Part shown: positions 5,184-29,748 of the stretch, one piece after another
Position numbering within the stretch: the first letter of the stretch is position 1
Layout: each line of letters starts with the position of its first letter
DNA from: Anaeromyxobacter sp. Fw109-5
GTDB taxonomy: Bacteria; Myxococcota; Myxococcia; Myxococcales; Anaeromyxobacteraceae
Assembly (NCBI RefSeq): GCF_000017505.1
Contig: NC_009675.1
Location: 744,001-808,000, forward strand
Length of the DNA: 64,000 nucleotides
Direction of reading: 5' to 3'
Notes under the pieces: generated by a model
Databases searched by the model: none
Seen by the model: the letters and a program-made list of their open reading frames with translations, nothing else
Told to the model about the DNA's origin: nothing
Position numbers and translations under genes: made by a program

Positions 5184-5237
5184 GGCCGGGTCCGCGATTT
5201 ACCCTCTCGAATCGCGTACTTACGGGCGGTCGCTTCC

Positions 5238-5266: not shown

Positions 5267-5316
5267 TCGCCGGGCTTCGCGGCCTGTCGCGCGCTCGACC
5301 ACGGGGACCCTCACGC

Positions 5317-7023
<1,707 letters not shown>

Positions 7024-7054
7024 GCTCCTCGCAGGCACGAAGGCGGACCGAGAT

Positions 7055-8152
7055 TTGGCGAACCTGCACCAGCTCCTCAAGGCGATGGTCGAGAAGGGGG
7101 CCTCCGACCTCCACGTGACGACCGGGTCGCCGCCCCAGCTCCGCATCGACGGCGCCCTCGTGCCGCTCAAGACGCCGCCGCTCACGCCCGTCGAGACGAA
7201 GCAGCTCTGCTACTCCATCCTGACGGACTCGCAGAAGCACAAGTTCGAGGAGGAGAGCGAGCTCGACCTCTCCTTCGGCGTGAAGGGGCTCTCGCGCTTC
7301 CGGGCGAACATCTTCATGCAGCGCGGCGCCGTGGCCGGCGCGTTCCGCACCATCCCGTTCAAGATCCTGACCTTTCAGGAGCTCGGGCTGCCGCCCATCG
7401 TGACCGAGCTCGCGAAGAAGCCGCGCGGCCTCGTGCTCGTGACCGGCCCCACCGGCTCCGGCAAGTCGACCACGCTCGCGTCGATCATCGACAAGATCAA
7501 CACGGACCGGCACGAGCACATCATCACGATCGAGGATCCGATCGAGTACCTCCACCCGCACAAGAACTGCGTGGTGAACCAGCGCGAGGTCGGGGCCGAC
7601 ACCCAGTCGTTCAAGAAGGCGCTCAAGTACATCCTCCGCCAGGATCCCGACGTGGTCCTCGTGGGCGAGATGCGCGACCTCGAGACCATCGAGGCGGCGC
7701 TGGTCATCTCCGAGACCGGCCACCTGGCCTTCGCGACGCTGCACACGAACAGCGCGGTGCAGACCATCAACCGCATCCTGGACGTGTTCCCGCCCTACCA
7801 GCAGCCGCAGGTGCGCGCGCAGCTCTCGTTCGTGCTCGAGGGCGTGCTCACCCAGAACCTGCTGCCTCGGGCCGGCGGTCCCGGGCGCGTGCTCATCATC
7901 GAGGTGATGGTCCCGAACCCCGCCATCCGGAACCTGATCCGCGAGGACAAGATCCACCAGGTGTACTCGCAGATGCAGGTCGGCCAGGCCAAGTTCGGGA
8001 TGCAGACCTTCAACCAGAGCCTCGCGGCGGCGTTCTCCCGGCGGCTCATCACGCTCGAGGACGCGATGGGCCGCTCCCCGGACCCCGAGGAGCTGAAGAA
8101 CCTGCTCTCGAGCGGCGCGGCCCTGCGCCCCGCCGCGCCGCCGTCCCGCTGA
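7055..8152 (+). CDS. pilT: type IV pilus retraction ATPase PilT
   Basis: A 365-residue retraction motor that depolymerises the pilus and drives twitching motility. Walker A GPTGSGKST lies near 131-139 and Walker B DPDVVLVGEMRD near 205. The AIRNLIRE motif near residue 290, specific to PilT-type retraction ATPases, is intact. There is no zinc tetracysteine site, unlike PilB. The start is TTG 7055, fixed by the family N-terminus ANLHQLLKAMVEKGASDLH. The gene lies 31 bp after pilB and shares its operon. Confidence 0.96.
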   Translation: MANLHQLLKAMVEKGASDLHVTTGSPPQLRIDGALVPLKTPPLTPVETKQLCYSILTDSQKHKFEEESELDLSFGVKGLSRFRANIFMQRGAVAGAFRTIPFKILTFQELGLPPIVTELAKKPRGLVLVTGPTGSGKSTTLASIIDKINTDRHEHIITIEDPIEYLHPHKNCVVNQREVGADTQSFKKALKYILRQDPDVVLVGEMRDLETIEAALVISETGHLAFATLHTNSAVQTINRILDVFPPYQQPQVRAQLSFVLEGVLTQNLLPRAGGPGRVLIIEVMVPNPAIRNLIREDKIHQVYSQMQVGQAKFGMQTFNQSLAAAFSRRLITLEDAMGRSPDPEELKNLLSSGAALRPAAPPSR

Positions 8153-11129: not shown

Positions 11130-11138
11130 GATGCGCGC

Positions 11139-12512
<1,374 letters not shown>

Positions 12513-12631: not shown

Positions 12632-15600
12632 TCACTTGCAGGACGTCGGTGCGGTGTCCTTGTGCCTGCAGTCGTGCAGATCCTTCGAGATCTGGATGAC
12701 GCCGTAGCTCGGGACCGGGTCACGGCTCACCGCGGTCGGGACGTTCGACGCGCCCTTCTCCGGGTTCACGGAGGTCAGGCCCACCTGGACCTGGCCCTTC
12801 TGGTTCACGAACACGGTGGGCTGGTCGCCCATGGTCGGCACGAGCGTGTTCTGCGCGCGCGCGAACACCTTGGTGCCGCCCTCCTCGAGCACCGGGCTCC
12901 CCTTCACCGGATCCACCACGTAGTGGTAGGCGACGCGCCGGTTCTCGGCCGTGCACTTCGCCGTCCGGCAGCTGCTGCCATTCCGTCGCGTGACGATGGG
13001 GCTGGTGGCGGTCTGGATGGTCTTCCAGGAGAGCCACCGGTAGATGGCGGTCGTCGAGGAGGTGCGCTCGTCGTAGCGCGAGACCGTGTACGTGTGATCG
13101 TCCGCGGTGACCGTGCCGCCGTGGTTGTAGTAGAGCGCCCAGCCGTCGCTCGATCCGGTCGCGTAGGTCGGGGTGCTGGTGGTGCTCGGGTTCCCGTCGA
13201 TCTTCACGAGCGTGGTGGTCGTGTCGGCGACGCCGGAGAGCGTCAGGCGCGCGGCGTCGTAATCCTTCGCGTCTTGCTCGGTGCGGAAGATGGCGCGATC
13301 GCCGCTGTCGTCGAACACGCGGATCGAGACGAACCAGTTGTCGCGCTCGATGGGGGTCGCGGCCTCGTCGAGGTTCACCGGGAGGCCGTTCGAGCCCGAG
13401 CGCGTGCAGGCGAGGCCGTTCGCCGAGTCCGAGCAGGTGACCTGGACGTTCTTGACCGTGTCGTTGTTTCCGGTGCAGTCGATCGCGACGTTGGCCTGGC
13501 CGCTCAGCGTGCACGCCGCGGCGCTCGGGTCGGTGGAGCTCGCGCCGGCGGAGTAGGACGTGCACGCGTTCAGCGTCGTGCTGCCCTCCGCCTTTCCGAG
13601 CCCGGTCGACCAGAGGTAGTTGGAGGCGCTGGACACGGTGACGGAGCACCCGCGCTGCGCGCACGCCCGGATGTTGTCGGGGCCGCACTTGCCGCCGAAC
13701 GTGTCGAGGAGGTTGTACCGGTCACCCGTGCCGGCGTACGTGCGCAGGATCCCGCCCGGGATGGCGGCGTTCGAGGTGATGTAGAAGAAGGGCTGGCTCG
13801 CGCACCCCTGGAGCTCGAACGCGCGGGCGCCGTACCAGTTCGTCACCCTCTTCGTGCCGGAATCCAGCCTGCCGGGGTCGCTGAACCGCAGCACCCAGAG
13901 CTGACCGGCCGCGTCGCCGAACGTCGCGGTGTCGAAGTAGCCCTGGTTCGGGGAGGACTGCGTCCGGCGCATCTCCTTGCCCCACACGATCATCCCCACG
14001 GTCGCCGGGATGGGGGCCTTCAGCGCGCGGCGGGGATCGTCCGTGGCGACCGTCCCGGTGGGATAGCCGAAGTCGAACAGCTCGTGCCCGGTCCAGACGT
14101 CCACCATGTGGACCCCGCGCCCGCGCACGTACTGCGGGTCGAACCCTCCGGAGAGCATGGTCACCCAGCGCTCGTGGTACCGCTTCGAGACCATCGTGCT
14201 GGGGGTCGTGTCGCTCGGCACGTCCATCGTCAGCGCCGACTGGGCGACGCCGAAGAGGGTGTCGGAGGTGCCGTCCGACTCGATCCGCACCGGGCCGATG
14301 GGCGGGCCGTTCGGCAGGAAGTCGGCGTACGTGGCGCCGAACGCGAGCGACTCCGCGTCGTCCGGCTGCGGGTAGATCCAGAGGAACTTCGGGGGCAGGT
14401 GGCCCGTCTCGCTCGGGAGCTTCGTCGCGTCGCTGAGATCCAGCGCGAAGTAGTGGCTGCCGCCGCGCCGCTCGGCGACGACGGCGACGGTGTGGAACTC
14501 GGTCTTCTCCTTCTTCCCGTCCGCGTGGCCCGACCCGATCCCGTTCGACGTCCCGTCCACCCAGACGTCGCGCACCATCGGGGAGCCGTCCACGAACAGC
14601 TGGTGTCCGACGACGAGGAGGCCGAGCTTCGGGAGCAGATCCGGCGGCACGAATCCCCACAGCTCCGCGCCGGTGCCCCGGGTGAAGTAGCCGTTGAACG
14701 GCGGCTTGTCCTCTTCGATGCCGCTCGTCGTGGGATCGTCCTCGTCCGCGACCCACGCGCCGCCGTCGAACGCGTGCAGCATCCCGTCGTTCGCCCCGAC
14801 GAGCACGACCTTGCGCCGGTCCTTGTAGGGGGCGCTCTTCGCGTACCCGGCGTAGGCGTCCTCGGTGCTCGAGTAGTCGGGGACGGGCGTCTCCCACAGC
14901 GAGGTGAGGCACTGGTTGTGGAGGCCGTTCGGGCACAGCACGCCGTCGGGAGGGAGGGGAGGATCGACCACCACCGGCGCGGAGTGGAAGATGTCGCCCA
15001 GCATCACCTTGCGCTTCGGGAGCGTGTCCTGCGCCGCGTCCGTCGCGTCCTTCGGCCAGACCCCCAGGTCTTCGGACTCGTTGTCGTTGAAGACGTCGGC
15101 GCCGAGCACGTAGCGGACGAGCGTCTTCGCGCAGAACCGGCGGGCCGTGAGCGTCGTCCCCGCCACCGCGGCGGCCGTGTCCGGGTCGCCGCGGGCGCTG
15201 ATGCGGCTCGCGAGGTCGCCGCAAACGCCGCCCTCGAGGGCGAGGTACGGGATCAGCTTGTCGGCGACCGCGTCGGTGGGCTCGAGGCGGAAGACCGTGT
15301 CGCGAGCGTCGATCTTGCCGTCGGGCGTCCCCTCGGTCGGACCGGAGTCGTCCACGACGGTGTAGACCCTGCGCTGCGACCGCCAGCTCGGCGTCTGGAG
15401 CGCCGTCTGCGCGTCCCAGTACTCCTTCGCGGCGCCCGTGCCGGCCACGGCGCAGGTCTTCCCCTCGACGTCCTTGCACGCGGCTGCCTGGTAGCAGGGC
15501 GCGCGGTTCTCCGGGTCGTTCTTGCGGAACGCGCCGGTCCCGTCCTCCTGGATGAAGTCGCCATCGGCGTCCTGGAGGAACACGCTCAAGCACTTTCCGT

Positions 15601-17632
15601 CGCAGTCGAGGTCTCCGTCGCCCGACCCGTCCGCCGTCTCCTTGCACTCGTTGATGAACTCGCTGTAGAGCTCGTACCGGAACAGGTGGCCCTTCCACAT
15701 CCGCTCGGCCGGCGACGCCGGCTCGAAGCGCGGCACGATCACCGACTGCCCCGAGGTCGTCTGGAGGGTGGAGACGGTGGCGACGCTGAACGAGGTGGAG
15801 CGCTGGTTGATGGCCACGAGCGCCTCGTCGAGCTTCCCGCGGAGCGTCGGTGCGTCGTCGGCGGCCTTGAAGAGCCCGCCGCCCATCTTCGCCATGGACT
15901 CGAGCATCGTCGCGGCGTCGCCGGTCGCGCCGAGGCCGATGGTGTAGATGTCGAGGAGCTGCTTCCCACCCATCGCCGCGCAGTCCTCCGTGTTCTCCGA
16001 GTTCTGGCGAAGGTCGAAGTTGTGCAGGTACCAGGAGACGCGGATGGGGTTGTTGAGCCAGTCCTTCTCGGCGGGGAAGCGCGTGCACTCGCGGCACAGG
16101 CTCTGCGGGATGCCGGAGCCGCCACCCGTGGCGCTCGCGCGGATGCCGGTGTCGGTGGACCCCGCGTACGTGGTCTCCGTCTCGCCCTCCTCCACGGTCC
16201 CCACGGGCAGGTTGTTCCCGTCGCTCGGTCCGGGGGCGCGATCCACGAGGACGATCGTCGAGCTGACCTGGCACGCGTAGCACATGGTCTGGTTCGAGCC
16301 GCCGGTGGCGGCGTTCCAGGTGTTCGGGAGGTTGAACCATTGCAGCGAGGGCGTGTGGTAGTACTGGCCGACGTCCAGGAGGGCGCGCGCGAGCGGGACC
16401 TCCCTGTCGAAGTGGAAGGTGTTCACCCTGGACATGAACGTGCTGCGGCTGCTCGTCCACTGCGCGTCCGGCTGATCGCACGCTGGCTTCAGCTCGACCC
16501 ACTGGTTCGACGTGTGGTCCGCCCCGACGTCGCCGAAGTGCGCGAGGCCCATGCGCACGTTCAGCTTGTCCATGACGAAGTCCTTCAGGACCTTGCGGGC
16601 GATGAGGAACTTCGGCGGGTAGAAGTTGAGCCAGTTCCCGGTGAAGAAGATCGAGGGGTAGCTCTGATCCGGAACCCCGTCGACGGTGGTCTTGAACTCG
16701 CGGCCGTCCAGCAGGAAGCCGCGCTTTCGCAGGCACGACGCGCAGATGTCCTTCTTCAGGAGCAGCCCCTGGTTCGCGTTGTTGCCGTACAGCGACGAGC
16801 AGAAGTTGTCGATCGCCAGGATCGTGTCGTTCTTGCGGGCCGCGGGGTTGAGGCTCAGCGCGGTCCAGCCGTCCGCGGGGGAGTTCGCGGGCGGGTTCAC
16901 CACCGTGTCGTGGAAGACCAGGTCGCTGTCGAAGAAGTTCTTCGTGTTCGGACAGTCGACCTTGTCTCCGGTGCTGCCGCAGTAGAAGTCGGGATCGTAG
17001 CCGCCCGGGTGGCTCGGGTCGTTCGCGGGCACGATCGACCCGGAGGTGGAGCTGCCCTGCGTGTAATACGGGCAGGCCTTGGAGGCCGCGGCGTAGTCCA
17101 TCGGCGTTCCGTCCGCTTTCAACGGTTGGTAGATGTTGCCCAGCGTTCCAGGCTCGCTCGAGGCGCCGCAAGCGGGCTGGAACGTACGCGAGCGCAGCCA
17201 GTGAATGAGCGTGCCTTCCCCGGCAAAAGCGGCGGAGGCGGGATCGTCTCCGCAGCCCATCACCGGGCAGCCGGTGAGGGCATCGCAGTCCGCGTTGAAG
17301 GCGCTGAGCGCGGGAACGGGATCGAGCGGGTTCACCAGCGGCGGCCGCTGGCCGGGGTACGAGGACGGGCCGTTGGGGGGCAGGCGGCGCATCGACGTCG
17401 AGTTCCCGAGCAGGAAGAAGACGTTCGGGATGCCGCCGGAGGTCGTGAAGAAGCTCGCGTCCTCGAGGTCCGCGCCGTTGAGCTGCGTGTCCATGTAGCT
17501 CGTCGCGACGAGACCGCGCGCGGCGGACGGCGTGCTGCAGGTCTGCGCCGGGGCGTCGGTCGCGGGCAGCACCAGCGCGATGACCGCCGCGACCGCGAGG
17601 AGCCGGAGGGCGCGTGAGGGCCTGGGGGGCAT
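12632..17632 (-). CDS. pilY1: PilY1-type tip adhesin / pilus assembly factor
   Basis: A 1666-residue exported protein starting at ATG 17632, with a signal peptide of about 30 residues ending APAQ and AGGAG at the ribosome-binding site. The N-terminal two thirds is variable, with many cysteines and a von Willebrand A-like stretch (IVLVDRAP, LLDIYTIGLGATGD). Asp-rich loops resembling calcium sites occur, such as DGSGDGDLDCDG and TPDGKIDARD. The C-terminal third is the PilY1 beta-propeller, with VLVGANDGMLHAFDGG. In known systems PilY1 sits at the pilus tip with minor pilins, and calcium binding in the propeller controls extension and retraction. It is the last gene of the minor pilin run. Confidence 0.9.
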   Translation of the reverse strand: MPPRPSRALRLLAVAAVIALVLPATDAPAQTCSTPSAARGLVATSYMDTQLNGADLEDASFFTTSGGIPNVFFLLGNSTSMRRLPPNGPSSYPGQRPPLVNPLDPVPALSAFNADCDALTGCPVMGCGDDPASAAFAGEGTLIHWLRSRTFQPACGASSEPGTLGNIYQPLKADGTPMDYAAASKACPYYTQGSSTSGSIVPANDPSHPGGYDPDFYCGSTGDKVDCPNTKNFFDSDLVFHDTVVNPPANSPADGWTALSLNPAARKNDTILAIDNFCSSLYGNNANQGLLLKKDICASCLRKRGFLLDGREFKTTVDGVPDQSYPSIFFTGNWLNFYPPKFLIARKVLKDFVMDKLNVRMGLAHFGDVGADHTSNQWVELKPACDQPDAQWTSSRSTFMSRVNTFHFDREVPLARALLDVGQYYHTPSLQWFNLPNTWNAATGGSNQTMCYACQVSSTIVLVDRAPGPSDGNNLPVGTVEEGETETTYAGSTDTGIRASATGGGSGIPQSLCRECTRFPAEKDWLNNPIRVSWYLHNFDLRQNSENTEDCAAMGGKQLLDIYTIGLGATGDAATMLESMAKMGGGLFKAADDAPTLRGKLDEALVAINQRSTSFSVATVSTLQTTSGQSVIVPRFEPASPAERMWKGHLFRYELYSEFINECKETADGSGDGDLDCDGKCLSVFLQDADGDFIQEDGTGAFRKNDPENRAPCYQAAACKDVEGKTCAVAGTGAAKEYWDAQTALQTPSWRSQRRVYTVVDDSGPTEGTPDGKIDARDTVFRLEPTDAVADKLIPYLALEGGVCGDLASRISARGDPDTAAAVAGTTLTARRFCAKTLVRYVLGADVFNDNESEDLGVWPKDATDAAQDTLPKRKVMLGDIFHSAPVVVDPPLPPDGVLCPNGLHNQCLTSLWETPVPDYSSTEDAYAGYAKSAPYKDRRKVVLVGANDGMLHAFDGGAWVADEDDPTTSGIEEDKPPFNGYFTRGTGAELWGFVPPDLLPKLGLLVVGHQLFVDGSPMVRDVWVDGTSNGIGSGHADGKKEKTEFHTVAVVAERRGGSHYFALDLSDATKLPSETGHLPPKFLWIYPQPDDAESLAFGATYADFLPNGPPIGPVRIESDGTSDTLFGVAQSALTMDVPSDTTPSTMVSKRYHERWVTMLSGGFDPQYVRGRGVHMVDVWTGHELFDFGYPTGTVATDDPRRALKAPIPATVGMIVWGKEMRRTQSSPNQGYFDTATFGDAAGQLWVLRFSDPGRLDSGTKRVTNWYGARAFELQGCASQPFFYITSNAAIPGGILRTYAGTGDRYNLLDTFGGKCGPDNIRACAQRGCSVTVSSASNYLWSTGLGKAEGSTTLNACTSYSAGASSTDPSAAACTLSGQANVAIDCTGNNDTVKNVQVTCSDSANGLACTRSGSNGLPVNLDEAATPIERDNWFVSIRVFDDSGDRAIFRTEQDAKDYDAARLTLSGVADTTTTLVKIDGNPSTTSTPTYATGSSDGWALYYNHGGTVTADDHTYTVSRYDERTSSTTAIYRWLSWKTIQTATSPIVTRRNGSSCRTAKCTAENRRVAYHYVVDPVKGSPVLEEGGTKVFARAQNTLVPTMGDQPTVFVNQKGQVQVGLTSVNPEKGASNVPTAVSRDPVPSYGVIQISKDLHDCRHKDTAPTSCK

Positions 17633-17649
17633 GACGGGCTCCTGTGAGG

Positions 17650-18153
17650 CTAGAAGAGGGCGAACCGCATCGCGAACTCGACCTCCAGCTCGCGGTTGCG
17701 CGCGTCCGTGCAGCGGGCCACCGCGCGGTAGGCGCGGCCGGAGGTGAGCGCGTCGGGCGAGGCGCTCCGGTTCGTGAGATCCACGACCGGCATGGGCGCG
17801 CCGTCGCTGACCGCCTTGTCGACGGCGAGCACGACCTGGTTCACGGTCATCGAGGTGGTCGAGCCGTAGTGCGCGGGCGCCTGGAGCGTGCCGACGCCCG
17901 TGATGTCGAGCGGCGCGGTGAGCTGGTTCGCGCTCGACAGGTAGCGCGGGCCGTACCGGGCGATCTCCGCCCAGATCTTGGCCCGCGCCGCCTGCGCGCA
18001 CGCCGCGAGCGCGTCCACGCGCGACTTCGCGGCGGCGTTCCGGCGCTCCTGGGACGAGAGCAGCACCGCCGCGCCGCCGATCACCGAGAGGACGGCCAGC
18101 AGGATGAGGGCGATGACGAGCGTGCTGCCGCGGTCCTGCGCACGAGGGGGCAT
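17650..18153 (-). CDS. pilX: PilX-like minor pilin
   Basis: A 167-residue prepilin-like protein. The leader MPPRAQDRG is followed by STLVIALILLAVLSVIGG, a hydrophobic pilin helix. Position 5 of the mature protein is Ile rather than Glu, as in PilX and GspK proteins, which sit at the top of the tip complex. The rest is short with two cysteines. It lies between pilW and pilY1, which supports the assignment. The start is ATG 18153, 8 bp after the pilW stop. Confidence 0.8.
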   Translation of the reverse strand: MPPRAQDRGSTLVIALILLAVLSVIGGAAVLLSSQERRNAAAKSRVDALAACAQAARAKIWAEIARYGPRYLSSANQLTAPLDITGVGTLQAPAHYGSTTSMTVNQVVLAVDKAVSDGAPMPVVDLTNRSASPDALTSGRAYRAVARCTDARNRELEVEFAMRFALF

Positions 18154-18161
18154 GGCGGCTC

Positions 18162-19424
18162 CTAGAAGTAGACCATGCCCTGCGAGAGCATGTTGGGGAG
18201 AGGGATCGTCGCCTCGAAGGCGACGCGCTGGTAACCGTCCTTGGCGTCCGCGTCGCCCACCCAGGCCGCCGGCGCGGACTGGTTCAGGCGCAGCATCGGC
18301 GGCGAGCTCTGGCGCGTGAAGTCCGGCTCGGGAGAGCGGGCGACGATCGCGATCCGGACCGCCCGGACGTTCGCCTGATGATCCGTGAGCCGCTCGGGGT
18401 CGGCGGGCGGACCCATCGTGTAGCGGTACCAGCTGGTCGGCGAGTAGACGCTCTCGTCGGGCGCCGGCGCCGGGCCCGGGAAGACGAGCTGGGTGAGCGT
18501 GTCGGTGGTGCCGGGGGCGCCCGGGAAGCCGGCGTTGAAGGTGATGCCGGTGCCGGACGTCGCGCCGACCACCTTCCCGTTCGCGAGCACGTAGGCGACC
18601 TGCATCGACTCGATGCCCTCCGCGACGAACTCCTCGTCCGCCTCGGTGACGGCGCCGCCGGTCCCGACGGAGTCCACCCCGCGATCGAGGACGAGGAACG
18701 GGTCCACCCGATCGCCCACCGCGACCGGCCGCACGTGGAGCCGGTAGCGATCGATCAGGAACACGCGCGCGGCGCCGCTGCGGAAGCACTCGTCGCCGGC
18801 GGCGTCCTGGCGCTTGAAGGGGTTCGCCGAGTCCACCGCCTCGAGCTCGATCTGGAGCGGCCCGTCGACGGCCACGGGCGCCGAGGCCGGCGCCCTGGCG
18901 GCAACCGTCACGTAGACGTACTGGCTCGCGCCCTCGCAGACCGCCTGCAGGATCTGTCCCTTGAGGAACGTGTCGCCGGCGCGGGCGTTCAGGTGCAGGT
19001 GCGTGGCGGTGATACCGGAGCTGGTCACGCTCCACGTACGGCCCGCCATCCCGGTGCCCGAGGGTTGCAGCCAGTACGACGGATTGCGCGCGTAGAACAC
19101 GAGCTCGTCGGAGTCGTCCGTGCGGTCGCGCTTGCAGGCGCCGCTGACCTGCAGCTGCGCGGGGCACGGACCGCTCGTGTACCGATCGAGGTCGAGCGCG
19201 AGAGAAGGCGCCATCCCGTACCCCGCCAGCGGCAGCTTCTGCTCCAGGAACAGCAGCGCGTTCCGGGCCGAGGCCTGCGCCGCGCGCACGCGGTGGCCGT
19301 CGGCGTAGGCCTGCTGCTGGGACGTCACGATCCCCACCATCGCGACGAGCACGAGGGACGAGACCGCCATCGCGATCAGGAGCTCGACGAGGGTGACGCC
19401 GCGGACGGCGGGTCGGGGAGGCAT
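18162..19424 (-). CDS. pilW: PilW-like minor pilin
   Basis: A 420-residue prepilin. The leader MPPRPAVRG precedes VTLVELLIAMAVSSLVLVAM, with Glu at mature position 5. Its size and the long variable C-terminal region match PilW proteins. The frame is open upstream to 19700, but that extension overlaps pilV and lacks a prepilin leader, so ATG 19424 is chosen. It is co-transcribed with pilV, which ends 5 bp upstream. Confidence 0.85.
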   Translation of the reverse strand: MPPRPAVRGVTLVELLIAMAVSSLVLVAMVGIVTSQQQAYADGHRVRAAQASARNALLFLEQKLPLAGYGMAPSLALDLDRYTSGPCPAQLQVSGACKRDRTDDSDELVFYARNPSYWLQPSGTGMAGRTWSVTSSGITATHLHLNARAGDTFLKGQILQAVCEGASQYVYVTVAARAPASAPVAVDGPLQIELEAVDSANPFKRQDAAGDECFRSGAARVFLIDRYRLHVRPVAVGDRVDPFLVLDRGVDSVGTGGAVTEADEEFVAEGIESMQVAYVLANGKVVGATSGTGITFNAGFPGAPGTTDTLTQLVFPGPAPAPDESVYSPTSWYRYTMGPPADPERLTDHQANVRAVRIAIVARSPEPDFTRQSSPPMLRLNQSAPAAWVGDADAKDGYQRVAFEATIPLPNMLSQGMVYF

Positions 19425-19429
19425 GGGGA

Positions 19430-20017
19430 TCACCGGTAGGCCGCCGCGAAGGAGAGCGCGAGGCCGGGGTTCGAGCGCTGCGTGAGCACCACCACCTCCC
19501 GCGGGCTGGCGTTCCCACGCTCGTGGTAGACGACCGAGACGGCCACGACCTTCGTCGCCGCCGCGCCGCTCGCGGACCCGTCGCCGACGTAGTCCCAGAC
19601 CGTCCAGCGGCGGCGGTAGAGCGGCTGCGACCCGTCGAGCGGGTCGGCCTCGATCGCGGAGTCGAGGCGCGCGCCCGGGACCGCCTCGCCGTCGCTCCAC
19701 GTGCGGATCTCGTCCGCGGTCGTGTCCGCGCCGAGGAGCGATCCGAAGGTCGACGGGGGCGTGGAGGAGAGGGTTCCGGCGAGCCGCCCGTCGTCGAAGG
19801 GCAGCGCCTCCAGCGCGCCGGCGAGCTCGGTCGCGAGCTGGGCGGCGGTGGTGTGCGCCCGGGCGCCGGCGTTGGAGGTGATCCCGATGATCTGGAGCTT
19901 CATCATCCCGAGGAGCCCCACCGCGAGGATGGCGAGCGCCACCATCGCCTCGAGGAGGGTGGTGCCGCGCTGGCCGCGCGGGTGCGGAGGACGGCGCTCG
20001 AGCCCTTGGGCGTGCAT
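19430..20017 (-). CDS. pilV: PilV-like minor pilin
   Basis: A 195-residue prepilin. A longer basic leader ends in QRG and is followed by TTLLEAMVALAILAVGLLGM, with Glu at position 5 and the LLEAMVALAIL pattern usual for PilV. It is preceded by the fimU-like gene (8-bp gap) and followed closely by pilW. The upstream ATG of the longer frame lies inside fimU, so ATG 20017 is used. Confidence 0.87.
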   Translation of the reverse strand: MHAQGLERRPPHPRGQRGTTLLEAMVALAILAVGLLGMMKLQIIGITSNAGARAHTTAAQLATELAGALEALPFDDGRLAGTLSSTPPSTFGSLLGADTTADEIRTWSDGEAVPGARLDSAIEADPLDGSQPLYRRRWTVWDYVGDGSASGAAATKVVAVSVVYHERGNASPREVVVLTQRSNPGLALSFAAAYR

Positions 20018-20025
20018 GGCGGCTC

Positions 20026-20664
20026 CTAGTTCGTCACGAACGTCCGGACGATGCCGGCGGGGAAGGCGACCACCAGGCCGCGGCGATCGGCGGCGGGCGA
20101 GTCCACGCTGGTCGTGAGCGCGAAGGCATATCCCGGCTTCCCGGTCGCGCCCTCGGCCGAGACGGTCCCGTCTCGCCCGAAGCGGATCGCGAAGCGGCGC
20201 TTGCCGGCGATGGTCGCCGTCAGCGCGGAGTCGAACATCGGGATCGCGGCGAACGGGGCGGGGGGAACGCCCGTGACGCCGGGGTACAGCCGTACGCCGC
20301 GCGGCATCGCCACGTGGTCCACGTACGCGGCGTTGGTGCCCGGGCTCGTCGGGTTGAAGCCGGCGAGCGTCCAGGAGGCGTTCGGGTTCCGCAGGACGTA
20401 GTAGCGCGTGCAGCGCCCCTGCACGAAGGCGCTGCACGCCGCCGGGTCCGTGCCGTCGAGGAGCACGACCAGGTAGTCGTCCTGGTCCGAGATCGCCTGC
20501 GCCTTGAGGCCCGACAGCTTCAAGGCGAGCTCGAAGGTGGCGCTGCCGAGGTTCGCGTTCGACTGCGCGGCCTGGGACACGCCGAACGCCACGCCCGCGA
20601 GGATGGCGACGATCGCGAGGACCACCATCAGCTCGATCAGCGTGAACCCGTGGCGCCGGTGCAT
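20026..20664 (-). CDS. fimU: FimU/FimT-like minor pilin (GspH family)
   Basis: A 212-residue prepilin with the short leader MHRRHG followed by FTLIELMVVLAIVAILAGVAFG. The C-terminal part fits the GspH fold, ending with segments around FAIRFGRDGTVSAEG. It heads the minus-strand run fimU-pilV-pilW-pilX-pilY1. The frame extends to 20709, but the prepilin leader fixes ATG 20664. A sigma-54-like promoter lies immediately upstream. Confidence 0.87.
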   Translation of the reverse strand: MHRRHGFTLIELMVVLAIVAILAGVAFGVSQAAQSNANLGSATFELALKLSGLKAQAISDQDDYLVVLLDGTDPAACSAFVQGRCTRYYVLRNPNASWTLAGFNPTSPGTNAAYVDHVAMPRGVRLYPGVTGVPPAPFAAIPMFDSALTATIAGKRRFAIRFGRDGTVSAEGATGKPGYAFALTTSVDSPAADRRGLVVAFPAGIVRTFVTN

Positions 20665-20676
20665 GCGCTGGCACCA

Positions 20677-20692
20677 AGCAAGCCGCGGGCCC
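20677..20692 (-). promoter_or_regulatory. possible sigma-54 promoter for fimU-pilY1
   Basis: On the minus strand GGGCCCG (-24), four bases and TTGCT (-12) have the exact GG-N10-GC spacing. The predicted transcription start falls within a few bases of fimU ATG 20664, which would give an almost leaderless mRNA. The -12 box is perfect and the -24 box has two mismatches. Confidence 0.4.
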
Positions 20693-20921
20693 GCTCCGGC
20701 GAGGCGCACCTCTGTATTCTCGGTGGCTTGGCGCGACGGGCCGGCGGCTTCCGCGCCGTCGGCACGTCACTTCTTGCAGCGGTCGCTACAGTTTGCATGT
20801 GGGCGTTCCGGCGCGGATGACGCGTGGGTCGGTACGCTGGCGGCGGGACCTCGCGCGGCGTCACGCGACGGCAGGGCGAACCTTTGCGCCACGGGCGCCG
20901 CTCTGCAACGATGCCGGCGCC

Positions 20922-22667
20922 GTGAACGACGAAATAGAGAAGTCGCAGGGGTGGACAGCTGGAGGCGGCACGCTCGGCGGCGAGCCTTTCGCCGACGGGG
21001 GGAGCGACTGGGCTCACCGGTACCCGCTGGCGGTCGTCTGGCTCCTCGCGCTGCTGGCCTACTCGAGCTCGTTCACCGGGGCGTTCGTCTTCGACGACCT
21101 CCACCACGTTCGAGACAACCTGGCCATCCGCGATCTCGGGGCGTTCCTGAGCTGGAGCGGGTACGAGCTCGCGCCCCAGCGGTACGTTGGCTACGTCACG
21201 TTCGCGGTGAACTACGCGCTCGGGAAGCTCAATCCGCTCGACTATCACGTCGTCAACTTCCTCATCCACGCGATCAACGCGGGCCTGGTGTACGGTCTCG
21301 TGCTTCTGTGCTTCAGGACCCCCCGGCTCTGCGGCTCCGCAGTGGCCGGGTCCGCGCAGGCGATCGCCTTCTTCGCGGCGGCGGTCTTCGCGACGCACCC
21401 CGTCCAGACCCAGGCCGTCACCTACGTCGTCCAGCGCTTCACCTCGCTCGCCACGCTCTTCTACCTGCTCACCGTGGTGCTGTTCCTCCGCTGGAGGCTC
21501 GCCCGGGAGCGGGGCGACGCGAGCCGGACGAAGCACGTCGCGTTGTATGCCGGCGTGCTCGCGAGCGCGGTGCTCGCGATGAAGACGAAGGAGATCGCCT
21601 TCACCGCGCCGATCGCGGTCGTGCTGTGCGAGCTCTCCTTCTTCGGGCCGTCGTCGTGGCGCAGGCGGCTGTTCCTCGTCCCGATCGCCGCGACGATCCT
21701 GATCATCCCGTTCACCATGCTGGGCCCCGCCCTCACCAGCCCGGCGGCGATCGCCCAGGCGACGCGGGTGCAGACCACCCTGTCGCGGCTCGACTACCTG
21801 CTGACGCAGGCTCCCGTGATCGCGACGTACCTGCGCCTGCTCGTGTGGCCGGCCGGGCAGAACCTCGACCACGACTTCCCGCTGGCGCACGCGCTGCTCG
21901 AGCCGCGGGTGCTCGCGGCGACGCTGCTGCTCGCCGCGCTGGCGTCGGTGGCTGCGCTTCTATACCGCCACACGTCGGCTCGCGCCGATGGGCGGCCCCT
22001 GGACCCGGCGGCGCGCCTCGCCGGGTTCGGCATCGCCTGGTTCTTCCTCGCGCTGGCGGTCGAGTCGACGCTGGTGCCGATCGTGGACGTCATCTACGAG
22101 CACCGCGTCTACCTCCCCTCCGTCGGACTCTTCTGCGGTGCCGGAGTGCTCGTGGCGCTGGGGCTGCATCGGCTCCAGCCGCGCCACGCCGCCCGCGGGC
22201 TGGTGGTGGGCGCTGCGGTGGTGGCCGTGGTCCTCGGGGCCGCCACGTTCAAGCGCAACCGGGCCTGGGCCAGCGAGCTCTCCATCTGGTCGGACGCGGC
22301 CGAGAAGTCACCGAACAAGTCGAGACCGCACCTCAACCTCGGGACGGTGCTCGTGCAAGCCGGGCGCCTCGAGGATGGGTCCGTCGCGCTGCGGCGGGCC
22401 GTCGAGTGCGATCCCGCGTCCTTCTACGCCCGCGCCCAGCTCGGCGCCGCGCTCCTGTCGCTCGGACGGATGGGGGAGGCGGAGGGCGAGCTCCGCGAGG
22501 CCGTTCGACTGGCGCCTCGCGATCCGGAGGCCCTGTTCAACCTCGCGATGGTGCTGCTCCGGACCGGCCGCAAGGGCGAGGCGAGGCCGCACCTGACCCG
22601 GTTCCTCGAGGTGGCGCCGGCCAGCTACTCGAGCGCGCGAAGCCTCGCCGAGCGGGCGGTACGCTAG
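20922..22667 (+). CDS. multi-span TPR membrane protein, TMTC/O-mannosyltransferase-like (candidate glycosyltransferase)
   Basis: About 581 residues from GTG 20922 (alternatives ATG 20817 or 20793). Ten or more hydrophobic segments fill residues 30-440. The first outer loop has FVFDDLHHVRDN near residue 58, matching the acidic DD motif of GT-C glycosyltransferases. YEHRVYLPSVGLF, a family signature, lies near residue 390. The C-terminal 110 residues contain TPR repeats (NLGTVLVQAGRLEDGS, LGRMGEAEGELREAV). The family is annotated as TPR or O-mannosyl/O-GlcNAc-type transferases. Its position between the minor pilin and pilin operons suggests glycosylation of a pilus protein; that is inference. 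Confidence 0.7.
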   Translation: MNDEIEKSQGWTAGGGTLGGEPFADGGSDWAHRYPLAVVWLLALLAYSSSFTGAFVFDDLHHVRDNLAIRDLGAFLSWSGYELAPQRYVGYVTFAVNYALGKLNPLDYHVVNFLIHAINAGLVYGLVLLCFRTPRLCGSAVAGSAQAIAFFAAAVFATHPVQTQAVTYVVQRFTSLATLFYLLTVVLFLRWRLARERGDASRTKHVALYAGVLASAVLAMKTKEIAFTAPIAVVLCELSFFGPSSWRRRLFLVPIAATILIIPFTMLGPALTSPAAIAQATRVQTTLSRLDYLLTQAPVIATYLRLLVWPAGQNLDHDFPLAHALLEPRVLAATLLLAALASVAALLYRHTSARADGRPLDPAARLAGFGIAWFFLALAVESTLVPIVDVIYEHRVYLPSVGLFCGAGVLVALGLHRLQPRHAARGLVVGAAVVAVVLGAATFKRNRAWASELSIWSDAAEKSPNKSRPHLNLGTVLVQAGRLEDGSVALRRAVECDPASFYARAQLGAALLSLGRMGEAEGELREAVRLAPRDPEALFNLAMVLLRTGRKGEARPHLTRFLEVAPASYSSARSLAERAVR

Positions 22668-22698: not shown

Positions 22699-23457
22699 TC
22701 AGCGGAAGTCGCGCCGCTCGAGCACCGCCGCGCCGAGGGCGAGGGCGATGGCGGCGTGGGCCATCGCGAGGAGGCAGCTCAGTCCCAGCGCAGCCGGGAG
22801 CGCGGTGCGGTAGACCACCGCGTCGTTCGTGGTGAGGCCGCCCAGGTCCGGCAGCGCGTACCAGATTAGGGTGGCGATCCAGGCGTGGTCGCCCTCCCAG
22901 AGGGCGCGCAGCTCGCTCGTGAGGTAGCCGGCGACGGTCAGGCTGAGCGTGAAGATCGCCGCCAGGGTGGTGTTGGTGAAGGTGGAGAAGAGCGCCGCGA
23001 TCGCTGCCACGGTGAGCACCTTGAGCAGCAGCGCGCCGAGCGCGCCGGCCAGCGCGGGCGTGAGCGGCGCCAGCGAGCCCGCGTCGAGGACGAAGAGCGC
23101 GGAGAGCATGAGCGCCATCGCGAGCAGGTTCAGCGCGAGCGCGGCGGACAGCCCGAGATAGCGCCCCAGCAGGTACTGCGTGCGGGAGACGGGCTTCGCC
23201 GCGATCGGGTAGATGACGCGGCGCTGCACGTCCCCGGCGACGAGGTCCGCGCCCAGGAACGTGGCGAGGAGGATCGAGACGAGCTCCATCCCCGAGAGTC
23301 CCAGGTCCGCGAGGATGCGGTGTGAGTACCCGACCGTGAGGAGCGTGGCGACGTACGCCGCGACGAGCAGGAGCGCGGCGAACACGAGCAGCGTCACCTG
23401 GATCTTGCGGCTCAGCGCCTCGCGGAGGGTGACCGCGGCGATGGCGAGGATCTTCAT
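22699..23457 (-). CDS. pilI: ABC transporter permease PilI
   Basis: A 252-residue membrane protein of the ABC-2 permease type, with six hydrophobic segments and FLGADLVAGDVQRRVIYPIAAKPVSR in the cytoplasmic loop. M. xanthus PilG, PilH and PilI form an ABC system needed for pilus assembly or export. The ATG overlaps the pilG stop by 4 bases (ATGA), which implies translational coupling. Its ATPase partner pilH is on the opposite strand about 1.9 kb away. The name rests on family type and neighbours. Confidence 0.82.
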   Translation of the reverse strand: MKILAIAAVTLREALSRKIQVTLLVFAALLLVAAYVATLLTVGYSHRILADLGLSGMELVSILLATFLGADLVAGDVQRRVIYPIAAKPVSRTQYLLGRYLGLSAALALNLLAMALMLSALFVLDAGSLAPLTPALAGALGALLLKVLTVAAIAALFSTFTNTTLAAIFTLSLTVAGYLTSELRALWEGDHAWIATLIWYALPDLGGLTTNDAVVYRTALPAALGLSCLLAMAHAAIALALGAAVLERRDFR

Positions 23458-24365
23458 CGGGGCGTCGCGCCTTTCAAGGTCGAGCCGAGTCGCTGCTGCG
23501 ACTCCTGGCGTTCCGAGTGGGTCATCGGCCTCAGGATGCGGCGGTCGTGCACGGACGAGTGCGTTCGCCCCTCGCCGTCGACGATCCACGACCCGCCGTA
23601 CGGATCGGGCGGGATGTCGTCGATCAGGCCCGCGAACCGCACCTCCTCGACGGCGAACGGCAGCCGGACGAACCGCTCGCGGAACGCCTGCACCGCCTCG
23701 TCGAGGCGCAGCGCGATCCGCTCGAGGCGAGCCTGCTGGAGCTGGGCCTCGAGCGCCTGGCGGGACTCGGCGTCCTCGCTCGACTCGATCATGTACGTGA
23801 GGAAGCGGATCGCGGCGTCGGCTTGATCGGCCTTCACGTACATCGCCATCACCGCCTCGCGGGTGTGGAGCGGCGCGCCGGGCGACCTGGCGGCGCGCTC
23901 GAACCAGGACGCGGCCGCTGCGTAGTCGCCCGCGTAGAGGAACGCGTTCACTCCGCGGTGGTAGGGGAGGATGTAGCGATCGGGCACGTTCGCCGTCCCC
24001 TTCTCGAGGAGCCGGTTCGACTCGTCCACGAGCCCCGACGCGGCGAGGATGTTCGCGCCGACCTGGTAGGCGTAGCCGTGGCGGGGGTCGAGGTCGGTCA
24101 CGAGCTCGAGGACCGGGTAGAGCTTCTCCCAGCCTCGTTCATTCGCCTTCGGGTCACCCATGTACTGGACGGCGCGCAGCCAGAAGAGGTTGGCGGCGAG
24201 CGTCGGGTGGCCGAGCGAGACCCATCGCACCGATGCGGCGCTCGGGACGTACGCGAGGTCGTAGGGAGCAAGGACGCTCTGAGCGTCGAGGCGGTGCCCG
24301 ATGGCCACCTTGGCGGTCGCGAGCGCCGCCGCGAGGGCGATCAGGGCGAGGGTGCGCCGTTTCAT
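23454..24365 (-). CDS. pilG: PilG-like accessory protein of the PilGHI system
   Basis: A 303-residue protein with an N-terminal hydrophobic signal/anchor (LALIALAAALATAKVAIG) and TPR-like helical repeats through the middle (YAYQVGANILAASG, FLYAGDYAAAASWFERAARS). No catalytic motif is seen. Its place between pilA and pilI matches the M. xanthus order pilA-pilG-pilH-pilI, with pilH missing from this strand. It is probably transcribed by read-through from pilA past a hairpin terminator. GTG or other upstream starts are not needed; ATG 24365 gives a clean signal. Confidence 0.75.
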   Translation of the reverse strand: MKRRTLALIALAAALATAKVAIGHRLDAQSVLAPYDLAYVPSAASVRWVSLGHPTLAANLFWLRAVQYMGDPKANERGWEKLYPVLELVTDLDPRHGYAYQVGANILAASGLVDESNRLLEKGTANVPDRYILPYHRGVNAFLYAGDYAAAASWFERAARSPGAPLHTREAVMAMYVKADQADAAIRFLTYMIESSEDAESRQALEAQLQQARLERIALRLDEAVQAFRERFVRLPFAVEEVRFAGLIDDIPPDPYGGSWIVDGEGRTHSSVHDRRILRPMTHSERQESQQRLGSTLKGATPR

Positions 24366-24375
24366 CGTCGTTCGG

Positions 24376-24415
24376 AAAAGCGGATGGCGCCCTCGACTCG
24401 GCCGAGGGCGCCATC
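24376..24415 (-). terminator. intrinsic terminator / attenuator between pilA and pilG
   Basis: A perfect 13-bp stem (24383-24395 with 24403-24415, arm CGAGGGCGCCATC) and a 7-base loop are followed on the minus strand by CGCTTTTCC. It lies in the pilA-pilG gap and should stop most pilA transcripts, so that pilG-pilI are made at a lower level. Confidence 0.8.
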
Positions 24416-24449
24416 AGAGTGCCACAACTCTGCCTGGGCCTCTAATTCG

Positions 24450-25046
24450 CTAGAAGACGCTCTCGTCCTGGATGATCGGAGCGCCCGTCCTGGTCGCGTC
24501 GAACACCAGCGCCGTCTCGCACGCACCGTCCGGCGGCGTGGACGTCACGTCGCCCAGAGAGCCGAGCTGCGGCTTGAAGAGCGCGACGCAGCGCAGGACG
24601 CCGTCGCCATCGACGTCCGACCGCGCTGTGACCGTCAGCGCCACGCCGGAGTTGGCGACGATGGTTCCAGTGGTCGGCGCCGTGACGTCCGACTGGTACC
24701 GACCGTACGTGGCGCCCTCGACCGCCCAGTCGATGTTGCGCGCGACCACCACGTCCCCGGGCGTCCACGCGATCTTGCTCGTGCCCACGTCGTTCGGAGC
24801 AACAGGCGTCGGGACCGCCGCGAACTGCCAGTACTGGCCGATCGCGCCCTCCGGGTTCGAACGCTCGCTCTGGCGCATCGCCTCCTGCGACTTGAAGATG
24901 CTGGTGACGTTCTCGTTCAGCTCGCTGACCTTGGCGCGGAGCTGGTACCGCATGAAGTTCGGGATGGCGATGGCGGCGAGGATGCCGATGATCGCGACCA
25001 CGATCATGAGCTCGATGAGCGTGAAGCCCTTGGACGTCTTCTTCAT
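24450..25046 (-). CDS. pilA: major type IVa pilin precursor PilA
   Basis: A 198-residue prepilin. The leader MKKTSKG is cleaved before [20 protein letters not shown], with Glu at mature position 5, by PilD. The conserved helix continues [18 protein letters not shown]. Two cysteines in the C-terminal region (RCVALF and GACETAL) can form the disulfide-bounded loop. ATG 25046 follows GGAGG. A longer frame begins at 25082 but adds nothing pilin-like. It is transcribed from a sigma-54 promoter divergently from pilH and followed by a strong hairpin terminator, as expected for an abundant structural protein. Confidence 0.96.
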
Positions 25047-25144
25047 GATGCCTCCGTGGTGTGGCGTACGCGGGGGGACCACCGTGGCGCCACCGTCTTC
25101 GGGCTCGTGCTGATCCCTGGCCCGTTGTCTTGGGCCGGCACGAA

Positions 25145-25261: not shown

Positions 25262-25318
25262 CGCTGCGTGCGGCGGTGCGGGCGGGTGTGTGCCACGGGT
25301 CCGGGAGGCGCCGTGCCT

Positions 25319-25347
25319 TTGACAGCGCCCGGCGACGCCCGGATCAT
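25319..25347 (+). promoter_or_regulatory. sigma-70-type promoter for pilH, near-leaderless
   Basis: A perfect TTGACA (25319-25324), a 17-bp spacer and GATCAT (25342-25347). The -10 box ends 9 bases before pilH ATG 25357, so the leader would be only 2-4 bases. Confidence 0.55.
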
Positions 25348-25356
25348 GCGCTCGAC

Positions 25357-26307
25357 ATGATCCTCCGAACCGAGGGGCTCACGAAGGTCTTCGAGCTCCG
25401 CCCCGGCAAGCGCGTCACGGCCGTCGACGACCTCACCTTCTCGGTCCAGGAGGGGGAGATCTTCGGGTTCGTCGGCCCGAACGGCGCGGGCAAGACCACC
25501 ACCATCAAGATGCTGATGGGGCTCATCTTCCCCACGCGCGGCCGAGCCTTCATCTTCGACACGCCCATCCCCTCGGAGGCGTCGAAGGCGCGCATCGGCT
25601 ACCTGCCCGAGAACCCCTCGTACCACGAGTTCCTCACCGGGATGCAGGCGCTCCGGTTCTTCGCCACCCTCGCCGGCGTGCCGCGCCGGGAGCGGGGGAA
25701 GCGCTGCGAGGAGCTGCTCGGGATGGTCGGGCTCGAGGCCGCGGCGGACCGCCAGCTCCGCAAGTACTCGAAGGGCATGCAGCAGCGGCTCGGCATCGCG
25801 CAGGCGCTCGTGGGCGACCCCGCCTTCGTCGTGCTCGACGAGCCCATGAGCGGGCTCGACCCCGTGGGCCGCAAGGAGGTCCGCGACCTCATCCTCGAGC
25901 TGAAGCGGCGCGGCAAGACCGTCTTCTTCTCGACGCACATCCTCCCCGACGTGGAGACGCTCTGCGACCGCGTGGGCGTGATCCTCGGGGGCAAGCTCCG
26001 GGACGTCGGCCGGATCGACGACCTCCTCTCGGCGAACGTCCGCTCCGTCGAGCTGAGCGCGGTCGTGCCGCCCGCCGCCGCGCCCGCCCTGGCCGCGGGG
26101 CGGATCGTGCGCGCCGACGCCGAGCGGGTCACCGTCGCGTTCGACGACGAGGGGCACGCCGACGCCGCCGTGGCCGCCATCGTCCGCGCCGGCGGGCGGG
26201 TGCTCTCCCTCACGCCGCACCGCGACACGCTCGAGGACTTCTTCGTGCGTCGGCTCGCGGAGACGCAGGGAGCGCCGGCCCCTGCGCCGACGCGCAAGGC
26301 TTCGTAG
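25357..26307 (+). CDS. pilH: ABC transporter ATPase PilH
   Basis: A 316-residue ABC ATPase. Walker A GPNGAGKTT lies near residue 39, the signature KYSKGMQQRLG near 137, and Walker B FVVLDEPMSGLDP near 158. The H-loop is in VFFSTHILPDVETLCDR. A C-terminal extension is typical of ABC-2 exporters of the CcmA/NatA type. It should pair with the PilI permease and PilG on the opposite strand. The frame is open upstream to 25276, but the family N-terminus ILRTEGLTKVFEL supports ATG 25357. pilD follows by 3 bp. Confidence 0.88.
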   Translation: MILRTEGLTKVFELRPGKRVTAVDDLTFSVQEGEIFGFVGPNGAGKTTTIKMLMGLIFPTRGRAFIFDTPIPSEASKARIGYLPENPSYHEFLTGMQALRFFATLAGVPRRERGKRCEELLGMVGLEAAADRQLRKYSKGMQQRLGIAQALVGDPAFVVLDEPMSGLDPVGRKEVRDLILELKRRGKTVFFSTHILPDVETLCDRVGVILGGKLRDVGRIDDLLSANVRSVELSAVVPPAAAPALAAGRIVRADAERVTVAFDDEGHADAAVAAIVRAGGRVLSLTPHRDTLEDFFVRRLAETQGAPAPAPTRKAS

Positions 26308-26310
26308 CCC

Positions 26311-27183
26311 ATGGCGCCCGACCCGAGCGTCCCGGCCGCGTTCGCCGCGGCGTGGTTCACGGTCCTGGGCGCCGTCGTCGGCAGCTTCCTCAACGTGGTG
26401 ATCGCGCGCGTCCCGGCGGGCCTCTCGATCGTGAGGCCGGGGTCGCGCTGCCCTCGCTGCGAGAAGCCGATCGCCTGGTACGACAACCTCCCCGTGGTCT
26501 CGTGGCTCCTGCTGCGCGGCCGCTGCCGCCGCTGCGCGCTGCCCATCTCGATCCGCTACCCGCTCGTCGAGCTGCTCGGGGCGGCCGCCGGGTACCTGGC
26601 GTGGCGCCGGCACGGTCTCTCCGGCGAGGCGGGCGCGGAGCTGGCCTTCGTCGCGACGCTCGTGGCGCTCGCCTTCATCGATCTCGACACCTGGCTCCTC
26701 CCGCACGTGATCACCTGGCCCTTGCTGGCGGCGGGCCTCCTCGCCTCGCTGCTCGGCTGGAGCGCGGCCTCGACGTTCCCCTCGTCGCTCTGGGGCGCCG
26801 CGGTGGGCTGGGGCGTGTTCGCGGCGCTCTCGTGGGGGGGAGAGAAGGTCCTCAAGAAGGAGGCGCTCGGGTTCGGAGACGTCTGGCTCCTCGGCGGCCT
26901 CGGCGCGTGGCTCGGGCTCGGCGCGCTGCTGCCCGTGGTGCTGCTCGCCTCGATCCAGGGCAGCGTGGTGGGGATCGCGCTGGTGCTGCTCGGGAAGGCC
27001 GAGACGGGAGAGCGGCGGGCGAACGAGGCTCCCGCGGCGGACGAGAGCGCCGCCGACGAGGACTGGGTCCCCCCCAGGAACGCGGTCCCGTTCGGACCGT
27101 TCCTCGCGCTCGGCGCCGTCGAGTGGCTCTACGGCGCCGACCTGCTCGCCCGCGCGTTCCCCGCGCTCGGCGCGTTCCGGTGA
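26311..27183 (+). CDS. pilD: prepilin leader peptidase / N-methyltransferase PilD
   Basis: A 290-residue membrane aspartic protease that cleaves and N-methylates prepilins. The cytoplasmic zinc loop has two CxxC pairs, CPRC and CRRC, near residues 49-75, linked by the family pattern PIAWYDNLPVVSWLLLRG. The catalytic aspartates lie in AFIDLDTWLLP and in the GFGD motif (GFGDVWLLGGLG). About eight hydrophobic segments are present. It would process PilA and the four minor pilins encoded here. It overlaps nothing and is tightly spaced with pilH and pilS2. Confidence 0.95.
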   Translation: MAPDPSVPAAFAAAWFTVLGAVVGSFLNVVIARVPAGLSIVRPGSRCPRCEKPIAWYDNLPVVSWLLLRGRCRRCALPISIRYPLVELLGAAAGYLAWRRHGLSGEAGAELAFVATLVALAFIDLDTWLLPHVITWPLLAAGLLASLLGWSAASTFPSSLWGAAVGWGVFAALSWGGEKVLKKEALGFGDVWLLGGLGAWLGLGALLPVVLLASIQGSVVGIALVLLGKAETGERRANEAPAADESAADEDWVPPRNAVPFGPFLALGAVEWLYGADLLARAFPALGAFR

Positions 27184-27186: not shown

Positions 27187-28329
27187 GTGGGCCGCGGGGT
27201 CCGGACCGTCCTCCTGCTCGATCTCGCCGCCGCCGGCGCGGGCGCCGCCGCGGTGACGCTCGCGATCGGCCTCCCGCTCGCCGCCCGCGGCGGGCTCTCT
27301 CCGCGCGCGCTCGCCGTCGTCGTCCTCGTGGGCGGCGCCGCGGGCGTGGCGCTCGGGGCGGCGCTGCTCTTCCGGGCGGTGGCGCGTCCGGTGGATCGGA
27401 TCGTCTCCGCCGCGGAGCGCCTGGGAGCAGGCGCCCGCGCCGACGCGCTGCCCTTGCTCGCCCCGCCCGGCGACGCCGCCACGGAGAGGCGCGGCGCGGC
27501 GGGAGCCGCGGTGGCCTTCGAGCGGCTCGCGGGCGCGCTCTCGGAGGAGCGGAGCCGGCTGGCGGAGAAGGTGAGCGAGCTCGAGCGGGCGAACGGCGCG
27601 CTCCTCGAGGCGCGCGAGTCGCTCGTCCGCGCCGAGCGGCTCGCCACCGCGGGCCAGCTCGCCTCCGGCATCGCCCACGAGGTGGGCAACCCGCTCGGCG
27701 CCATCACCGGCTACGCGGAGCTGGCGCGCTCGCGGCTGCGCGACGGCAGCCCGCCCGCGCTCGCGCAGGCCGCGGAGTTCGCGGAGCGGATCGCGGCGGA
27801 GACGGCGCGGATCGACCGGATCGTGCGGGACCTGCTCGATCTCGCGCGCCCGAGCGCGCCGGTGGTGCGCCCGATCGACGTGCGAGGGCCGCTCGAGGCG
27901 GCGCTCCGGCTCGCGCGCGCGCAGCCCCGGTTCCGTGCCGTCGAGGTGACCGAGGACCTCCCGGCGGCGCTGCCGCGGGCCCTCGCGGACGAGCAGCGGC
28001 TCGCGCAGGTGCTCCTCAACCTGCTGCTCAACGCGGGTGATGCGATGGGGGGCGCGGGCGCGGCGCGGGTGAGGGCGCGCGCGGCGGGCGGCTTCGTCGA
28101 GCTCGCGGTGGAGGACGCCGGCCCGGGATTCGACACGGCGGACCTCTCGCGCGTCTTCGAGCCGTTCTTCACGACCAAGGGGGCGGGGCAGGGGACCGGC
28201 CTCGGCCTCGCGATCTGCCGGAGCATCGTGGAGGCGCTGGGCGGCGACATCCGCGCCGAGAACGCGCCGGGCGGAGGCGCGCGGGTCGTCGTCCGGCTCG
28301 TGAAGGCCGGAGAGCCCGCGGAGGCCTGA
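27187..28329 (+). CDS. pilS2: sensor histidine kinase, PilS2-like
   Basis: A 380-residue kinase with two N-terminal transmembrane segments (about 10-30 and 37-60) and a HAMP-like linker around RPVDRIVSAAERL. The HisKA domain has His164 in IAHEVGNPLGAITGY, and the HATPase domain has VEDAGPGF and GTGLGLAI. Unlike the first PilS it has no PAS domain and only two membrane spans, so it likely senses a different signal. It starts at GTG 27187, 3 bp after pilD. Its response regulator follows. Confidence 0.87.
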   Translation: MGRGVRTVLLLDLAAAGAGAAAVTLAIGLPLAARGGLSPRALAVVVLVGGAAGVALGAALLFRAVARPVDRIVSAAERLGAGARADALPLLAPPGDAATERRGAAGAAVAFERLAGALSEERSRLAEKVSELERANGALLEARESLVRAERLATAGQLASGIAHEVGNPLGAITGYAELARSRLRDGSPPALAQAAEFAERIAAETARIDRIVRDLLDLARPSAPVVRPIDVRGPLEAALRLARAQPRFRAVEVTEDLPAALPRALADEQRLAQVLLNLLLNAGDAMGGAGAARVRARAAGGFVELAVEDAGPGFDTADLSRVFEPFFTTKGAGQGTGLGLAICRSIVEALGGDIRAENAPGGGARVVVRLVKAGEPAEA

Positions 28330-28377
28330 CGGGCGCGTGGCCGGGCAGGGTGGTGGACGCGTGATAAGGTGCGCCCC

Positions 28378-29748
<1,371 letters not shown>

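Follow-up and report, generated by a model that had tools for sequence, protein, structure and literature searches.

A TMTC-like GT-C protein of an Anaeromyxobacter pil cluster as a probable pilin glycosyltransferase, apparently exchanged with pilin alleles

Among the pilin-modifying enzymes described so far, TfpW of Pseudomonas was reported to be a pilin arabinosyltransferase of the GT-C type (Kus 2008, as quoted by PMC11841053 and PMC12369383), and pilA of Pseudomonas is described as being replaced as a cassette together with tfpW/tfpX or tfpO (PMC12369383). According to PMC12369383 and PMC11127046, the decaprenyl-phosphate arabinose pathway supplies the TfpW-dependent pilin arabinosylation of P. 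paraeruginosa. In eukaryotes, TMTC1-4 are protein O-mannosyltransferases of the GT-C type that pass mannose from dolichyl-phosphate-mannose to cadherin-like domains and have a published topology of 11 transmembrane (TM) helices, and full-length TMTC homologues in prokaryotes, Deltaproteobacteria included, were already noted without a function (PMC7801869). No link of these prokaryotic proteins to pili was found in the literature covered, which included few subscription journals, and pilin glycosylation by the bacterial TMTC branch is a function not assigned in the literature found. From the fold, the active-site residues, the TPR domain, the pil-cluster clade, the replacement by other GT-Cs and the co-segregation with pilA/pilG/pilI, all of them computed, we infer that a TMTC-like protein of the soil bacterium Anaeromyxobacter sp. 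Fw109-5 is probably a polyprenyl-phosphate-sugar:pilus-protein glycosyltransferase that works in the periplasm and has PilA as its main acceptor.

The window, a stretch of 64,000 nucleotides, covers positions 744001-808000 of a single contig of 5,277,990 bases. The candidate glycosyltransferase (GT) gene at 20922-22667 on the plus strand has a GTG start and codes for 581 aa; its frame is open further upstream, to a TTG at 20793. A chance reading frame is contradicted by 56 homologues, which align with many near-invariant residues, and by the high-confidence model obtained from them; together with the fold matches, they identify a TMTC-like GT-C gene. The protein contains FVFDDLHHVRDN, VIYEHRVYLPS and TPRs at the C-terminus. 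One side of the gene is occupied by fimT-pilV-pilW-pilX-pilY1 (minus strand, 12632-20709), including a fimT-type minor pilin recognized by domain models (20026-20709) and a pilY1-like gene whose start is not fixed (12632-17629; weak PF05567 match and synteny). On the other side lie pilI-pilG-pilA (minus strand, 22699-25082), and pilI converges with the GT gene across a 31-base gap. The DD loop, EHRVYLPS, the TPRs and this location between the minor pilin/pilY1 and pilA genes had been pointed out in a sequence-only reading and are all present.

The three latter genes comprise a pilI-type ABC permease (22699-23589; ABC2_membrane_2), a pilG-type gene (23454-24365) and the major pilin gene pilA (24450-25082; N_methyl and PilA_Myxo models). 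They are followed on the plus strand by a pilH-type ABC ATPase (25276-26307; ABC_tran), the prepilin peptidase gene pilD (26311-27183) and pilS-pilR (27187-29748). In relatives, pilH-pilD is a further insertion point for GT genes and pilS-pilR one for GT or donor genes. The names PilG, PilH and PilI rest on the gene order of M. xanthus and not on its sequences. An NtrB/NtrC-type two-component pair is found directly beside pilY1 (window 9477-12512), and the position of the NtrC-type gene is kept in several relatives.

Pfam, NCBIfam and PDB sequence searches of the protein returned TPRs only and left the GT part undetected. An AlphaFold2 model built from the alignment of the 56 homologues reached a pLDDT of 93.3 and a pTM of 0.92. 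The Foldseek ranking was headed by TPR proteins, as TPR matches fill the list, and the GT-C fold emerged on re-alignment with VIA-align. The top solved match was yeast Pmt1-Pmt2 (6p25_B, Z 21.2, 365 residues, rmsd 4.5), followed by Pmt4 (21.0), archaeal AglB (20.4), yeast STT3 (19.8) and ArnT (18.5), with PglB also among the top matches. The modeled structure is thus that of a GT-C protein, as the earlier reading had anticipated, while an identity of ~10% to the solved structures means that the matches speak for the fold and not for the sugar. The matched region, residues ~25-460 (20994-22301, plus strand), holds 11 TM helices by the hydropathy of the model helices: 30-52, 107-129, 142-158, 170-192, 203-220, 224-240, 252-267, 328-350, 364-384, 399-418 and 422-444. 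Helix 289-308, mildly hydrophobic and within the long TM7-TM8 loop, was taken as non-spanning by analogy with TMTC. The resulting arrangement agrees with the TMTC topology of PMC7801869. The positively charged loops are mostly on the cytoplasmic side, and from this topology the C-terminal TPR domain (residues ~461-581, 22302-22664, plus strand; Pfam TPR models and model helices) is presumably periplasmic.

In the homologue alignment, conservation reaches 90% or more at D58, D59, R87, K223, D316 and R395. Asp58-Asp59 (21093-21098, plus strand) in the first periplasmic loop would form the catalytic or metal site, and Arg395, within EHRVYLPS (22098-22121, plus strand) right before TM10, is the presumed contact of the donor phosphate. 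Their equivalents in TMTC1 are D52/D53 and R404, the latter in 'AERV' (PMC7801869). The TMTC-type architecture proposed earlier is hence found in the 11-TM GT-C domain, the loop-1 DD, the Arg before TM10, the long TM7-TM8 loop and the C-terminal TPRs. The DUF1736 model of Pfam, however, did not match the protein even with E values of up to 10 allowed, and we call the enzyme TMTC-like rather than a TMTC member for this reason; it also differs from TMTCs in being bacterial and pil-linked.

PMT enzymes carry a MIR domain. Pmt1, Pmt2 and Pmt4 provide the closest solved fold (Z 21, ~10% identity), but the window enzyme has TPRs where PMT has MIR. The GT-C fold is shared with STT3/AglB/PglB as well (Z 17-20), and an STT3-like gene occurs in pil clusters of relatives, though STT3 family models were not among the Pfam and NCBIfam matches of the window protein. 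TfpO and PglL, the Wzy_C-type pilin oligosaccharyltransferases, have pilin O-glycosylation in common with the proposed function, and TfpO is pilA-linked; a domain search of the window protein gave no match to the Wzy_C model. The suggestion that known pilin-glycosylating enzymes differ in fold is correct for TfpO and PglL but not for TfpW, itself a GT-C pilin glycosyltransferase. TfpW of P. (para)aeruginosa group IV, encoded beside pilA and exchanged with it as a cassette, offers a close parallel (PMC11841053, PMC12369383). No TPR tail is described for TfpW in the parts of these papers covered, the likeness being one to the published description and not to the TfpW sequence, and TfpW uses a D-Araf donor whereas DprE1 was not found in the window genome.

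The location of the gene in pil clusters across genera is not random. Within the genus, the order fimT-GT-pilI-pilG-pilA is kept in four genomes (G001, G002, G006, G008). In other genera, the GT gene lies beside pilI (G015), between pilH and pilD (G014, G018) or beside pilD (G019), and in G013 (L136/L083), where the contig is short, its neighbors are minor pilins. In a 72-row tree, the pil-linked copies of the family form one clade with support of 100/99, of which 11 of the 13 rows are pil-linked, the two others (L125, L127) belonging to genus g4. The earlier expectation of a non-random position was therefore borne out by a well-supported clade of pil-cluster copies from several genera. In G016 a clade member is present but away from the pil cluster, and a 51% paralogue of the window genome (L130 8840-10813), outside any pil cluster, falls outside the pil-linked clade, as do the other paralogues. 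Homologues are commonly encoded elsewhere than in pil clusters, so the family at large is not devoted to pili. The pil cluster of G008 has two tandem GT copies, which are well diverged (L121 8396-11900).

The pil clusters of relatives that have no window-type GT were found via PilG and PilM and then mapped. Some GT-C occurs in the pil cluster of 19 of the 24 genomes (G013 counted); apparently complete clusters without a detected GT-C were seen in G010, G016 and G022, and those of G020 and G021 are interrupted by contig ends. An STT3/AglB-like protein, matching AglB_L1 PF18079 and, below its cut-off, TIGR04154, is encoded in the clusters of seven genomes: in the pilH/pilD gap (G005), in the pilS/pilR gap (G012, G015), adjoining pilD (G009) or pilR (G007), upstream of pilA (G003), and in G023 beside pilS on one contig and beside pilR on another. 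Such STT3/AglB-like genes of bacterial pil clusters include L170 4960-7176, L167 6331-8592, L168 4249-6375, L171 6001-8340 and L197 2507-4675. A second, more distant TMTC-like group (B) adjoins pilI in G011 and G017 and occupies the pilR/pilS gap in G004, and YfhO proteins are found in G003, G011 and G012. In G003, four GT-C-like genes surround pilA (PMT_2 with TPR, YfhO, STT3-like and YfhO; L171 1654-8340 and 12000-14357).

The closest relatives are G005 and G008. Identity to the window is high for PilM (97 and 93%), PilR (89 and 92%), PilD (85 and 83%) and PilY1 (73 and 72%), against 48 and 53% for PilI, 38 and 53% for PilG and 54% in both for PilA. The presence of the window-type GT requires 3 changes on the PilG, PilI and PilA trees (~1-12 of 500 shuffles as low), 4 on the PilH tree (~56 of 500) and 5-6 on the PilD, PilS, PilR and PilM trees (~100-300 of 500). 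The co-segregation signal, limited to pilA-pilG-pilI, comes from 17-18 genomes with a label picked after the maps were seen, and physical linkage alone would yield co-transfer. Because the GT type tracks the pilA-pilG-pilI alleles and not the flanking pil genes, the GT and the pilin appear to be transferred together as a cassette, a pattern resembling the replacement of Pseudomonas pilA with tfpW/tfpX or tfpO. On balance we lean towards pilA-pilG-pilI being swapped as a block with GT-Cs of several families (TMTC-like with TPRs, the second TMTC-like group, STT3/AglB-like and YfhO-like), sometimes together with UbiA-DprE1-DprE2, and towards the TMTC-like proteins being bacterial pilin glycosyltransferases.

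Both PilA and PilY1 had been named as plausible targets. PilA is favored since the GT type follows the PilA/PilG/PilI alleles and does not follow PilY1. An unlikely competitor is a TMTC-like O-glycosyltransferase whose targets, instead of PilA, are mainly PilY1 or minor pilins, or exported proteins in general: the GT gene neighbors fimT-pilY1 in the window and adjoins minor pilins in G013, and the existence of paralogues away from pil loci implies that there are other acceptors. Yet PilY1 and the minor pilins are similarly alike (68-85%) in G005, of the STT3 type, and G008, of the TMTC type, so the GT type does not follow them, and the site of the gene in other genera is pilH-pilD, away from pilY1. 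It is more doubtful still that the GT-C decorates a surface polysaccharide or a lipid-linked glycan, with its place in the pil locus reflecting a recombination hotspot. Many GT-Cs do use polyprenyl-phosphate donors to decorate O antigen or glycans of the cell wall (PMC11127046), and the pil locus is insertion-prone in this bacterial family, but no polysaccharide gene cluster was recognized beside the GT in the window-type pil clusters mapped, the insertion points are inside the pil gene array, the GT type follows pilA/pilG/pilI, and the same locus holds different GT-C families including STT3-like proteins, STT3 enzymes being protein glycosyltransferases. A catalytically dead GT-C/TPR membrane protein serving as a pilus assembly scaffold is very improbable, for although the TPR domain resembles docking domains and TfpY and like accessory proteins aid pilus assembly without glycosylation (PMC11841053), the catalytic and donor-binding residues are near-invariant, and the other GT-C families as replacements and the donor-synthesis genes co-located in relatives argue for catalysis.

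As a pilin glycosyltransferase, the inner-membrane GT-C would take a sugar from a polyprenyl-phosphate donor at the periplasmic face and link it to hydroxyls of a pilus protein. PilA is the most likely acceptor, and the transfer would precede pilus assembly or accompany it. The loop-1 DD may activate the acceptor or bind a metal, and Arg395 may bind the phosphate of the donor. The TPR tail, on the periplasmic side, could be where the pilin or the assembly machinery docks. No Ser/Thr unique to cassette-A PilA was seen, and consequently no acceptor site could be proposed. The GT would be part of a pilin cassette (pilA-pilG-pilI plus GT) exchanged between lineages, different cassettes carrying different GT-Cs, and phage or predator pressure might drive the exchange.

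Information on the donor comes mainly from relatives. In G004 the GT gene is followed by DprE2-, DprE1- and UbiA-type genes, all between pilR and pilS, and in G009 a UbiA-DprE1-DprE2 trio is also placed between pilR and pilS; the matches of UbiA, DprE1 and DprE2 to models of the decaprenyl-phosphate arabinose pathway score below the curated cut-offs. These donor genes point to D-arabinofuranose for a sister enzyme. DprE1 was found in 5 of the 24 genomes of the family and not in the window genome, and a different donor is therefore expected for the window enzyme. Within the window, no gene for donor synthesis was recognized. A search with a DPM1-like GT2 encoded at a pilin/GT locus of Nitrospirota gave two matches elsewhere in the window genome and none in the window, for which reason no donor enzyme was assigned. 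UbiA-DprE1-DprE2 inserts between pilS and pilR span L163 2352-5352 and L196 7057-10010. In G017, UbiA-DprE1-DprE2 is accompanied by a TMTC-like gene at a site ~30 kb away from the pil cluster (L210 8815-14133), and this gene comes in addition to the TMTC-like one beside pilI.

Taken together, these results suggest that these bacteria exchange the pilus protein and the pilus sugar coat as one package. The proposed function gives a testable role to an uncharacterized bacterial TMTC branch and would extend cassette pilin glycosylation from Pseudomonas and Neisseria to Myxococcota and Nitrospirota. A general rule may be that each pilin allele travels with its own glycosyltransferase, and swapping of pilin and GT could be a means by which environmental bacteria escape phages and vary their surface.

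Homologues outside the family are mostly not near pilins, which indicates that the wider family also serves other purposes, and in other Myxococcota families (L212-L226) no pilin motif was present within their short flanks. Pilins were located within 1.5 kb of the GT in 8 of 12 cases vs 3.1 expected (13 of 5000 shuffles with random positions on the same contigs). In Nitrospirota, L086 and L084 show the order pilin-GT-pilin-GT2, with the GT frame interrupted in L084, and L065 contains two pilins, a GT2, another ORF and three GTs. In L064 the order is pilin-GT-pilin-GT-pilin (1118-7823), and its first two pilins have identical ends.
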